From Rikenellaceae bacterium (GTDB taxonomy: Bacteria; Bacteroidota; Bacteroidia; Bacteroidales; Rikenellaceae), in assembly GCA_017442365.1 (NCBI GenBank), contig JAFRZW010000016.1, positions 62,001 to 126,000 of the forward strand: a stretch of DNA of 64,000 nucleotides. The letters run 5' to 3'. Numbering within the stretch: position 1 is the stretch's first letter; every line of letters starts with the position of its first letter. The notes below the pieces were generated by a model. That model was given only the letters and a program-made list of their open reading frames with translations. It was not told the origin of the DNA and ran no database searches. Positions 11,024-14,338 of the stretch are shown here, one piece after another. Both the position numbers and the translations under genes were made by a program.

Positions 11024-11482
11024 CTACTTTTTGGTCGAGTCTTTCGATATGCACTGACCCTTGCAGCACGCCTCTGCCGAGCGGCGATAGCGCTTGTCGT
11101 GGCGGGCGCACTTGCCGCGAGGCATCACAGCGCTGTTGTAATCGGCCAGCCATTGGTCGTACTGCTGAGGCGTCAGAACGCTCTTCAATTTGGCGCGATA
11201 GGTCGAATCGGCTTCGTCGAAATGTGCCTGACGTTGATCCTCTGAGAGCGATGTGTCGTGGCGTACCGAGTGCATAGCCTCGGCACGTTGTCGGTTCAGA
11301 TCGTGAATGGCGCGTTTCTGCACGTCGGTCAGAGCCAACGATTTGGCCATCTGGTCGGTTTTGCGTTCGATCATCATTTCGTGATGGTCGGCACGTTTGT
11401 CGGGATTGTTTTCGTGAGCCGCAGTCGAGCCGAGAGCGAGCGTTGCGACCGCAATCAGCAACAAGTGAAAAGGAGATGTCAT
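11024..11482 (-). CDS. Spy/CpxP-like periplasmic protein with a Cys-rich tail
   Basis: Seen: 152 residues with a signal peptide (MTSPFHLLLIAVATLALGSTAA), a highly charged helical middle and two LTxxQ motifs (LTDVQKRAI, LTPQQYDQW) as in Spy/CpxP periplasmic chaperones. The tail is odd: it contains GKCARHDKRY and EACCKGQC, four cysteines in about 23 residues, which could bind metal or form disulfides. Known: Spy is an ATP-independent chaperone induced by envelope stress. It lies 68 bp downstream of the LytTR regulator on the same strand, so the two-component system at 11551-13658 may control it (inference). Confidence 0.75.
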   Translation of the reverse strand: MTSPFHLLLIAVATLALGSTAAHENNPDKRADHHEMMIERKTDQMAKSLALTDVQKRAIHDLNRQRAEAMHSVRHDTSLSEDQRQAHFDEADSTYRAKLKSVLTPQQYDQWLADYNSAVMPRGKCARHDKRYRRSAEACCKGQCISKDSTKK

Positions 11483-11550: not shown

Positions 11551-12312
11551 CTATTCGGCTTCGGTGAGCCACTTTTTGAATTTCGGCACGCGCGCCTTTG
11601 AGATGATGATGCGTTCGGGGGTCTCGACACTCAAATTGAGTGCCAAACGACTGCCAAACCACACCGAAATATCCTTTAACGCCTTTCTCGCAATAATGAA
11701 CTGACGGTTTGCGCGATAGAAATCGACCTCGTTGAGCACTCCCGACAGAGCCTCCAAAGTGCGGTCGATCGAGAATGTTTCGCCCGTGAAAGTGTGTGCC
11801 GTAACACGCTCTTCGCTGGTGTAGAAGTATGCAACCTCGTCGGCTCTCAGTGGTCGGATACGGTCGCGCACCTGCACCAGAAAGACATTTTGCTGTATCT
11901 GTCGAGGTTCGTCAGCCATCGTCTTGGTACGCTCGATTGCTGCCTCGCGTTCGGGGGCTGACAGTCGGCGCAGTTTCTCCAACGAGCGACGCAGATCCTC
12001 CTCAGCGATGGGTTTAAGCAGGTAGTCGATACTATTGACCTTGAAGGCTTCGAGTGCATATTGGTCGTAAGCCGTAGTGAAGATGATCGGACACTGCACA
12101 TCGACGTGCTTGAAGATCTTGAACGAGTCGCCGTCGGCCAAGTGAATATCCATAAAAATCAGTTCGGGCATTGGATTCGAGCGCAGATAATCGACACTTT
12201 CGGCCACCGATTCGAGCACCTCGATCACCTCGATCGACGGCTCGACCTCCGAAAGCAATGCACGTAGATTGACCGCAGCCGCGGTTTCGTCCTCAATGAT
12301 CAGGGTCTTCAT
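11551..12312 (-). CDS. LytTR-family response regulator
   Basis: Seen: 253 residues. An N-terminal receiver domain has the acidic pocket near residues 7-9 (EDE), phospho-acceptor Asp55 in LIFMDIHLADG and the conserved Lys in YLLKPI. The C-terminal LytTR DNA-binding domain contains YFYTSEERVTAHT and DFYRANRQFIIARKAL. Known: LytTR regulators bind direct repeats as dimers and pair with LytS-type kinases. The gene lies 32 bp after the kinase on the same strand. Its target genes cannot be read from the window, although the Spy-like gene just downstream is a natural candidate. Confidence 0.93.
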   Translation of the reverse strand: MKTLIIEDETAAAVNLRALLSEVEPSIEVIEVLESVAESVDYLRSNPMPELIFMDIHLADGDSFKIFKHVDVQCPIIFTTAYDQYALEAFKVNSIDYLLKPIAEEDLRRSLEKLRRLSAPEREAAIERTKTMADEPRQIQQNVFLVQVRDRIRPLRADEVAYFYTSEERVTAHTFTGETFSIDRTLEALSGVLNEVDFYRANRQFIIARKALKDISVWFGSRLALNLSVETPERIIISKARVPKFKKWLTEAE

Positions 12313-12344: not shown

Positions 12345-13658
12345 TTATTTGGTTTCGGGCAGCAGCGGCAGATGTACCTCGAATGAGTCGTCGGTGCGGA
12401 TTACCTCGATGTCGTGCCCGGTGATCATCTGCCAGCGTGTCGAAAGGTTTTTCAGTCCGATGCCGGTGCTGAGTTCAGCCTCGATTTTGGGGATTATGGG
12501 ATTCGAAACCACGATCTTACCATCTTTGGTGAAGATCGAGATTGTCAGCGGTTTCGAGCGTGTTATAGCGTTGTGTTTCACTGCATTTTCGATCAGGGGC
12601 TGCAATGCCAGCGAGGGCATTTGGCGCTCCATATATGCAGGATCAATGTCGATCTCGAAGAAGAGTTTGTCGGCATAGCGCACTTCCAGCAGATAGCGAT
12701 ACGAGTCGATGAACTGCAACTCATCAGCGACGGTCGAGAGCGTATTCTGCCCATTCTGAATGACATAGCGGAACACGTGCGAGAGTCGGTCGATGTAGGT
12801 CAGAGCCTTCTCGTTGAGTTTTTCGCGCACCAACATCGAGAGCGAGTTGAGCGAGTTGAACAAGAAGTGGGGGCTGATCTGGCTCACCAGCGCGCTGTAA
12901 CGTGTGGTGAGGTTTTCGTTTTTCAGCTGTGCGTTTTTGATTTCGATGCGCTGACGCTGATAGACCAGGTCGTATATTCGAGCATAGAGCACTGCCACGA
13001 CATAGACGAACATACATTTGAGCATCAGCACGATGTCGAGCGAATTGCGAGGAACGTCGCCCTTGATGCCGAGCACCGGAGCGGCGAAGAAGAATGCTGC
13101 CACGATCAGCAAACTGAGCAGATATGGCAGAAAGTATCGCTTGAAAATGGAGCTCTTGCGCGAGCTACGTGTAACGATTGTCAGCACCACGAACATCAGC
13201 AATGCGTAGCAGATGATTTGCAGTACGGTCTGCGAGCTGGTGTCGGGTTTGTCGAAACGAGCGGCGTAGTCGTGCTCCTTGCCGTTGAGGGTTTCGATTG
13301 TGAAGAGCGAGTGGTGTGCTCCCTCGATTTCGGGCGTGAGAGCCGTTACACGCATACGGTCGCCCTCTTTGAGTCCGAAACGCCACACACGTCCCGAATT
13401 GACATAGACCGAGTCGACCACACTACCTTCGTCCATAACCAAAAAACCGTAGCCGTCGGGCATAATGTGCAGCGTGCCTTCGGTGTCGATCACCACCTGG
13501 CGTGCCTCATACTCTTCGAGCCATTCGGGACGGTCCTTGTCGCTGTTGTGCGACTCGAACAGCACCAGCAGGTACGAGAAATTGACCAACAGACTGACTG
13601 CGATCGAGAGCAGAATATTGCCCCACAGAACGCGATTCTTAGGTGTGTATTTGATCAT
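12345..13658 (-). CDS. LytS-type sensor histidine kinase with a Rho-like OB domain in its extracytoplasmic loop
   Basis: Seen: 437 residues. TM1 is about residues 14-34; a loop of about 105 residues follows; TM2 (about 145-163), TM3 (about 178-197) and TM4 (about 206-226) precede a short coiled linker, the His_kinase box QISPHFLFNSLNSL (His264), the N box ENAVKHNA and the G box STGIGLKNL. The loop (about residues 54-128) has IMPDGYGFL, DSVYV, RFGLKEGD, then PEIEG and IETLNG in the same order and spacing as the RNA-binding OB domain of Rho. Positive residues after TM2 (RSSRK) put the loop outside the cytoplasm. Ligand unknown. It is in an operon with the downstream LytTR regulator. Confidence 0.9.
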   Translation of the reverse strand: MIKYTPKNRVLWGNILLSIAVSLLVNFSYLLVLFESHNSDKDRPEWLEEYEARQVVIDTEGTLHIMPDGYGFLVMDEGSVVDSVYVNSGRVWRFGLKEGDRMRVTALTPEIEGAHHSLFTIETLNGKEHDYAARFDKPDTSSQTVLQIICYALLMFVVLTIVTRSSRKSSIFKRYFLPYLLSLLIVAAFFFAAPVLGIKGDVPRNSLDIVLMLKCMFVYVVAVLYARIYDLVYQRQRIEIKNAQLKNENLTTRYSALVSQISPHFLFNSLNSLSMLVREKLNEKALTYIDRLSHVFRYVIQNGQNTLSTVADELQFIDSYRYLLEVRYADKLFFEIDIDPAYMERQMPSLALQPLIENAVKHNAITRSKPLTISIFTKDGKIVVSNPIIPKIEAELSTGIGLKNLSTRWQMITGHDIEVIRTDDSFEVHLPLLPETK

Positions 13659-13807: not shown

Positions 13808-14338
13808 TTACTCCTCGGTGTACCAGCTTGCGTAGAGCATATAGTCGCGTGCGGTGCGCTCGACGATCTCTTTACGCTGCTCGGGTGTGATCTCCTTGAC
13901 CTTCTTTGCGGGCACGCCGGCATAGACGCTGTTGGGTTCGAGCTTTGAGTTCGAGAGCACCAACGCATTTGCAGCGATAATGCAACCTGAGGGTACTACG
14001 GCGTTGTCCAAAATGGTCGAGCCCATACCGATCAGGCAGCTGTCGCCGATTATCGCGCCGTGAATCGTGGCGTTATGACCGACCGAAACGTCATTACCGA
14101 TGTGTGTCTGCGAGGGGTTCTTCGAGCCGTCAAAGAGGGTGTGGATCACCGCACCGTCCTGAATATTGGTGCGGTCGCCGATGGTGATTGCGTTCACGTC
14201 GCCACGCAGCACGGCGCCATACCAGATCGAGCAGTCCTTGCCGATTTTGCAGTTACCGATGATAGTTGCTGATTCGGCCAAGAATGTATTTTCGCCAATT
14301 TCGGGCTCGTAGCCACGAACTTTTTTAATGATTGCCAT
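13808..14338 (-). CDS. Gamma carbonic anhydrase family hexapeptide protein
   Basis: Seen: 176 residues built of left-handed beta-helix hexapeptide repeats from TFLAESATIIGN to SNSKLEPNSVYAGVPA. The three expected zinc-ligand histidines are present (VIHTLFDG, SVGHNATIHGA). Known: YrdA/PaaY/CaiE-type proteins of this length are trimers with an interfacial metal site; many are weak or untested carbonic anhydrases. It is first in a minus-strand operon with the microprotein, kinase and regulator, which is an unexpected pairing of a metabolic enzyme with a sensor. Confidence 0.9.
   Translation of the reverse strand: MAIIKKVRGYEPEIGENTFLAESATIIGNCKIGKDCSIWYGAVLRGDVNAITIGDRTNIQDGAVIHTLFDGSKNPSQTHIGNDVSVGHNATIHGAIIGDSCLIGMGSTILDNAVVPSGCIIAANALVLSNSKLEPNSVYAGVPAKKVKEITPEQRKEIVERTARDYMLYASWYTEE

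Follow-up and report, generated by a model that had tools for sequence, protein, structure and literature searches.

A Rho-type OB domain in the predicted periplasmic loop of a PF06580 histidine kinase from Rikenellaceae

The locus described here raises the question of why a sensor histidine kinase should carry, between its first two membrane segments, a domain resembling the RNA-binding domain of transcription terminator Rho, and what such a domain might do there. The gene lies in a 64,000-nucleotide stretch of DNA from a Rikenellaceae bacterium (contig JAFRZW010000016.1), referred to here as the window. The kinase and its parts, numbered by window position, are as follows.

12345..13658, minus strand: histidine kinase of 437 amino acids, 4-TM, PF06580 (LytS/YpdA-type), whose first predicted periplasmic loop contains the Rho-type domain
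13554..13622, minus strand: TM1, about residues 13-35, placed by hydropathy and orthologue alignment and containing the strongly conserved VNFSYLL
13275..13499, minus strand: Rho_RNA_bind / cold-shock-like OB domain, residues 54-128, placed by PF07497, predicted strands and fold search
13161..13235, minus strand: TM2, about residues 142-166, placed by hydropathy and charge and followed by the basic cytoplasmic loop RSSRKSSIFKR

The C-terminal half of the protein matches Pfam His_kinase (PF06580) at E 9.1e-22. The kinase motifs PHF (H264), NAVKH and GIGL are all intact, and a LytTR regulator is encoded next to the kinase gene. The protein is a member of the PF06580/LytTR systems and stands outside the multi-TM LytS receptors. 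Hydropathy revealed four hydrophobic segments, at approximately residues 13-35, 142-166, 174-196 and 206-228, and the Pfam 5TMR_LYT sensor had no match in the window kinase. The label 'LytS-type', given to the protein in an earlier sequence-only reading, holds for the kinase core and fails for the membrane part, which is of a 4-TM design. Kinase core, partner regulator and operon are those of LytS/YpdA-type kinases with LytTR regulators, whereas the four TM segments and the OB domain inserted in loop 1 set the window kinase apart from multi-TM LytS sensors such as BtsS, a pyruvate receptor with 7 TM segments (PMC10653868).

The segment from 13499 to 13275 on the minus strand is exactly residues 54-128 of the 437-residue frame, and the motifs from which a Rho-like domain had originally been read (IMPDGYGFL, DSVYV, RFGLKEGD, PEIEG and IETLNG) were all found in the kinase loop. 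PF07497 (Rho_RNA_bind), with a gathering score of 27 bits, matched residues 60-128 at 38.3 bits (E 1.2e-9) when the whole kinase was scored and reached 41.7 bits (E 1e-10) on the domain alone. The NCBIfam full-length Rho models aligned to residues 50-132 only; NF006886, for which 315 bits are required, gave 35.8 bits, and no ATPase domain is present. The protein is not Rho itself, and the source genome also encodes its own normal Rho at another place (117.9 bits). In a phmmer search of the PDB with the single sequence, the top match was E. coli Rho (1a62, E=1e-4). Orthologues were gathered by genome search, and an alignment of 31 of their domains (A1) was used as a profile. In the PDB, this profile found E. 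coli Rho at E=2.4e-11; natural OB proteins other than Rho, namely RNase R, RNase II and a cold-shock protein, followed at E 0.4-0.9. The best Bacteroidota Rhos scored 55-61 bits with A1, E. coli Rho 46.5, Thermotoga 37, Thermus 28 and RNase R 13.6. That Bacteroidota Rhos outscore those of E. coli, Thermotoga and Thermus suits an origin from Bacteroidota Rho. PF07497 matched all 31 orthologue domains at E<=1, and ten of the 11 orthologues scored singly lay above its cut-off. Chance resemblance to Rho was ruled out by the PF07497 scores, the recurrence in 31/31 orthologues and the PDB profile search.

AlphaFold2 with the full-length alignment placed strands at residues 54-65, 71-75 and 83-86, a helix at 88-93, and further strands at 101-107 and 116-124, which amounts to a predicted five-strand OB barrel with a helix between strands 3 and 4. 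The OB block had a pLDDT of ~80-87; the pTM of the full-length model, built on a 31-row alignment, was only 0.45, so that the placement of the domain relative to the rest of the protein is uncertain. The same secondary-structure elements appeared when the domain was modelled alone (mean pLDDT 75.6). With the predicted domain as query, all 43 PDB hits of Foldseek at E<=0.001 were Rho. VIA-align gave Rho a Z of ~10 and an rmsd of 2.7-3.1 over 74-77 residues, with RNase II/R and cold-shock domains next at Z ~6-7, a similarity measured on a prediction that was informed by the same sequences. The predicted barrel and its best structural matches, all of them Rho, agree with what had been proposed for the loop, and profile, predicted fold and fold search together support a Rho-type OB domain. 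Judged by profile and predicted fold, the loop domain belongs to PF07497. Its sequence is homologous to the Rho N-terminal domain, with which it shares predicted fold, order of motifs and structural residues. The kinase differs from Rho in having neither the Rho N-terminal helices nor the ATPase, in the predicted periplasmic location of the domain and in the replacement of the base-reading residues.

The neighbouring genes that accompany the kinase are listed below.

11551..12312, minus strand: response regulator with receiver (PF00072, 1.1e-12) and LytTR (PF04397, 3.6e-15) domains
11024..11482, minus strand: putative periplasmic DUF4890/LTXXQ protein (Spy/CpxP-type) of 152 amino acids (PF16231, 35.4 bits; cut-off 29.7)
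13808..14338, minus strand: left-handed beta-helix, gamma-carbonic-anhydrase-like neighbour, an upstream syntenic marker whose family name is a reading of its sequence

In nearly every locus compared, the LytTR regulator adjoins the kinase. The gene for the 152-residue protein, whose LTXXQ match is weak, lies directly downstream of the regulator, and an LTXXQ/DUF4890 gene has the same position in several other carriers of the Rho-type domain and in non-carriers. Because LTXXQ genes also stand beside OB-less kinases, their presence cannot explain why the OB domain is there, and the LTXXQ protein need not bind it. Most carriers and 6/6 non-carriers have the beta-helix gene upstream of the kinase; it is absent near the copies in genus g203. 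In the sister genera, the operon order is beta-helix gene, kinase, regulator, usually LTXXQ/DUF4890 and usually an outer-membrane barrel protein. The operon usually continues with a CarboxypepD_reg/OMP_b-brl_3 outer-membrane protein of ~950-1000 amino acids (loci L111-L120 and L151-L159); in the window copy this gene is missing and the next genes run the opposite way. In one carrier (L116, 5314-5667, minus strand), a small secreted His-rich protein takes the place of the LTXXQ gene, which hints at metal binding in operon function.

Four sister genera (g193, g185, g26 and g204) encode an orthologous kinase that is 45-54% identical over the shared region, with the same conserved TM1 (SLIVNFSY) and TM2 and no OB domain between them. 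Alike in TM1, TM2 and operon, the OB-less orthologues (L125-L130) differ in the TM1-TM2 loop, which is mostly ~20 amino acids long and without a Rho domain; the loop of L130 is longer than the others but low-complexity. The sister genera thus have kinase and operon but lack the domain, which most likely means that the receptor existed first and the OB domain was added to it by insertion. In a three-gene tree (kinase, regulator and upstream gene), one change separates carriers from non-carriers with moderate support (71/88; 74% of bootstrap trees), and a kinase-only tree is compatible with one or two gains. Insertion of a Rho domain into an existing kinase, probably once, is the simplest reading. 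Loss in the sister genera is compatible with the tree alone; gain is favoured by parsimony, because no such kinase was found in the other genomes searched.

In most genomes of the window's genus the A1 profile matched twice, strongly in a frame of ~440-470 amino acids (the kinase) and more weakly in Rho. A family-level search with the same profile showed that two further genera, g201 and g203, also carry the Rho-domain kinase, and gave a Rho match only in the remaining genera of the family. The kinase also occurs, at 83-84% identity, in two Rikenellaceae MAGs (cattle and roe deer caecum). A wider search with A1 at E<=1e-14, over ~790 additional genomes from the order and phylum, found no other Rho-domain kinase; a strongly diverged carrier scoring worse than this cut-off would escape. 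A wider family of such kinases across Bacteroidota was rejected on this search. Those extra-family hits that were read (L099, L101 and the phylum hit L110) are Rho itself, and the others have Rho-like frame lengths. A few genomes have a second PF07497 hit, which is either an additional copy of Rho or a weak match (21 bits) in a ~740-residue frame, probably RNase R. Two genomes have two full-length-looking Rho genes each, in frames of 609-673 amino acids (L162 and L169 in G377; L168 and L170 in G329); these could be real paralogues or contamination. The kinase is a warning that a bare PF07497 hit need not mean Rho; a Rho survey of 643 genera via PF07497 kept 632 Rhos and discarded two proteins that matched PF07497 but had no convincing ATPase domain (PMC11829017).

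It is proposed that a copy of the Bacteroidota Rho RNA-binding domain, inserted into the short TM1-TM2 periplasmic loop of a 4-TM PF06580 kinase, would act as its input module. The re-lined pocket may bind a periplasmic ligand other than C-rich RNA, namely a protein, peptide or envelope polymer. Binding would shift the TM1 and TM2 helices and alter how the dimeric kinase phosphorylates itself at His264, and the phosphate would pass to the adjacent LytTR regulator for control of an envelope operon. This operon would include the LTXXQ/DUF4890 protein and, in most species, the neighbouring outer-membrane beta-barrel protein. The kinase-LytTR system beside the LTXXQ/DUF4890 gene probably serves envelope sensing. 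CpxA/CpxR with CpxP (and Spy) is likewise a two-component system beside an LTXXQ-type periplasmic protein, and CpxP inhibits CpxA through its periplasmic domain (PMC6737893). An LTXXQ gene accompanies the kinase in the window and at several orthologous loci, and by analogy with CpxA-CpxP its product may feed back on the receptor; kinase family, regulator family and sensor fold all differ from those of CpxA/CpxR, and the feedback would here be conjectural. The anatomy alone, a Rho-derived domain that is periplasmic and inserted, is put forward with high confidence. The whole proposal, from sensor domain and ligand to envelope control, is advanced with moderate confidence, and among the readings the largest share goes to a ligand other than RNA, be it a protein, a peptide or an envelope polymer.

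The domain could instead be a passive spacer or dimerisation module without a ligand, the TM helices doing the sensing as in the OB-less orthologues. Sister genera manage without the domain in the same operon, and the OB part diverges faster than the whole protein (mean column identity among orthologues, 39% versus 55%), both of which would suit a spacer. However, a large genus retains the domain in most of its genomes, and it has invariant residues and a conserved, altered pocket. A spacer is possible but doubtful.

The pocket itself was compared between 43 Rho domains (from the order and phylum) and 31 kinase domains, in E. coli numbering. Structural positions D60, G63, D77, Y80, G94-D95 and N120 are retained in the kinase domains. 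At the aromatic positions 62, 64 and 80, all 31 kinases have an aromatic residue or His: position 62 is Y in 18, H in ten and F in three; position 64, F in all 43 Rhos, is Y in 30 and F in one; and position 80, Y in all 43 Rhos, is Y in 29 and F in two. The polar residues R66, D78, E108 and Y110, which read the base in Rho-RNA structures, have given way to others in the window kinase, as in almost every orthologue. R66 (43/43 Rhos) is V, I or L in 30 of the 31 kinases, D78 (43/43) is S in 29 and T in two, E108 (43/43) is E in none of the 31, and Y110 (Y in 41 Rhos and F in two) is H in 25 and N in six. The replacements are mostly hydrophobic, Ser, Gly and His/Asn. No paper giving a full list of Rho core-site residues was found in the open-licence literature. 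In a set of 20 non-redundant kinases, conservation at the seven core positions exceeded that of random columns (mean rank 15.3 of 66, a value as low being reached in 0.4% of random draws); several of the pocket positions belong to the OB core as well, and this conservation may therefore be structural. Because the replacements are conserved, the site looks re-lined rather than decayed, which suggests a different pocket. In one clade (L027, L028, L029, L034, L035 and L036), the motif DGYGYL[VI] has become D[ML][HY]GY[IV][IV]CDCE, and the resulting CxC pair at the pocket edge is possibly a metal or disulfide site.

An extended RNA-binding site of Rho has also been described, and charge reversal at residues 88 and 115 abolished or reduced rut RNA binding (PMC11018626). 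R87 is kept in 22 of the 31 kinases and residues 88, 102, 105 and 115 are variable, with R or K in about half of the kinases at 105 and 115 and in about half or less at 88 and 115. Of the RNA-contact residues whose conservation the earlier reading proposed to check, the aromatics 62, 64 and 80 are kept in kind and the basic ones of the extended site persist in some clades. The kinase could in principle be a nucleic-acid or nucleotide receptor that senses periplasmic or extracellular RNA or DNA through the aromatic face shared with Rho. The aromatic or His residues at 62, 64 and 80, the frequent R87, the R/K at 105 and 115 and a domain charge like that of Rho's own (-1.9 versus -2.0) are consistent with this, but the loss of R66, D78, E108 and Y110 in nearly all orthologues and the patchy R/K at the rut-binding positions 88 and 115 make it unlikely. 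With those same four replacements, a present-day cytosine- or RNA-reading module is not supported, and the loop domain appears to be a repurposed sensor pocket, no longer a reader of C-rich RNA. There is a slim prospect that the Rho-derived domain lets this two-component receptor recognise nucleic acid or nucleotides directly, whether extracellular or periplasmic; if true, external RNA or DNA would be linked to envelope gene expression in gut Bacteroidota.

In open-licence papers, no report was found in which a Rho domain or an OB fold serves as the extracellular sensor of a histidine kinase. A domain of a near-universal cytoplasmic RNA-binding machine seems to have been transferred to the other side of the membrane, where its re-lined site probably forms a receptor pocket; that is, an intracellular RNA-binding domain appears to be reused as an external sensor in a gut Bacteroidota kinase. 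The state before this change is preserved in sister genera, which have the same operon without the domain, and the change of function is therefore testable. The testable questions raised are what ligand has taken the place of RNA and which residues were responsible for the change.

An origin of the domain from another OB/CSD protein, such as RNase R/II or a NigD-like secreted protein, with convergence on Rho, was also considered. The RNase-type OB model (OB_RNB) weakly matches 18 of the 31 members, one of them at 3e-6, and the NigD-like 4pqx was found at Z 6.3 in the fold search. However, Rho_RNA_bind outscored OB_RNB in 11/11 orthologues scored singly, and Rho leads the sequence and fold searches by a wide margin, which renders a non-Rho origin very improbable.

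The side of the membrane was read from charge and segment number. Over 31 orthologues, the mean net charge is +2.3 at the N-terminus, +2.9 in the TM2-TM3 loop and -2.4 in the OB loop, and the basic stretch noted earlier after TM2 is therefore real. Four TM segments, a cytoplasmic kinase core and this positive-inside pattern indicate that the domain faces the periplasm, and the extracytoplasmic position first suggested for it stands as a prediction. A cytoplasmic domain binding RNA as in Rho is barely credible and was rejected, as no point in its support was found and the even TM number with a cytoplasmic kinase, together with the positive N-terminus and TM2-TM3 loop, argues against it. In one orthologue (L037, G001:C17:6838-7911), the loop between OB strands 2 and 3 contains ~55 extra low-complexity residues, and this loop thus tolerates large insertions.
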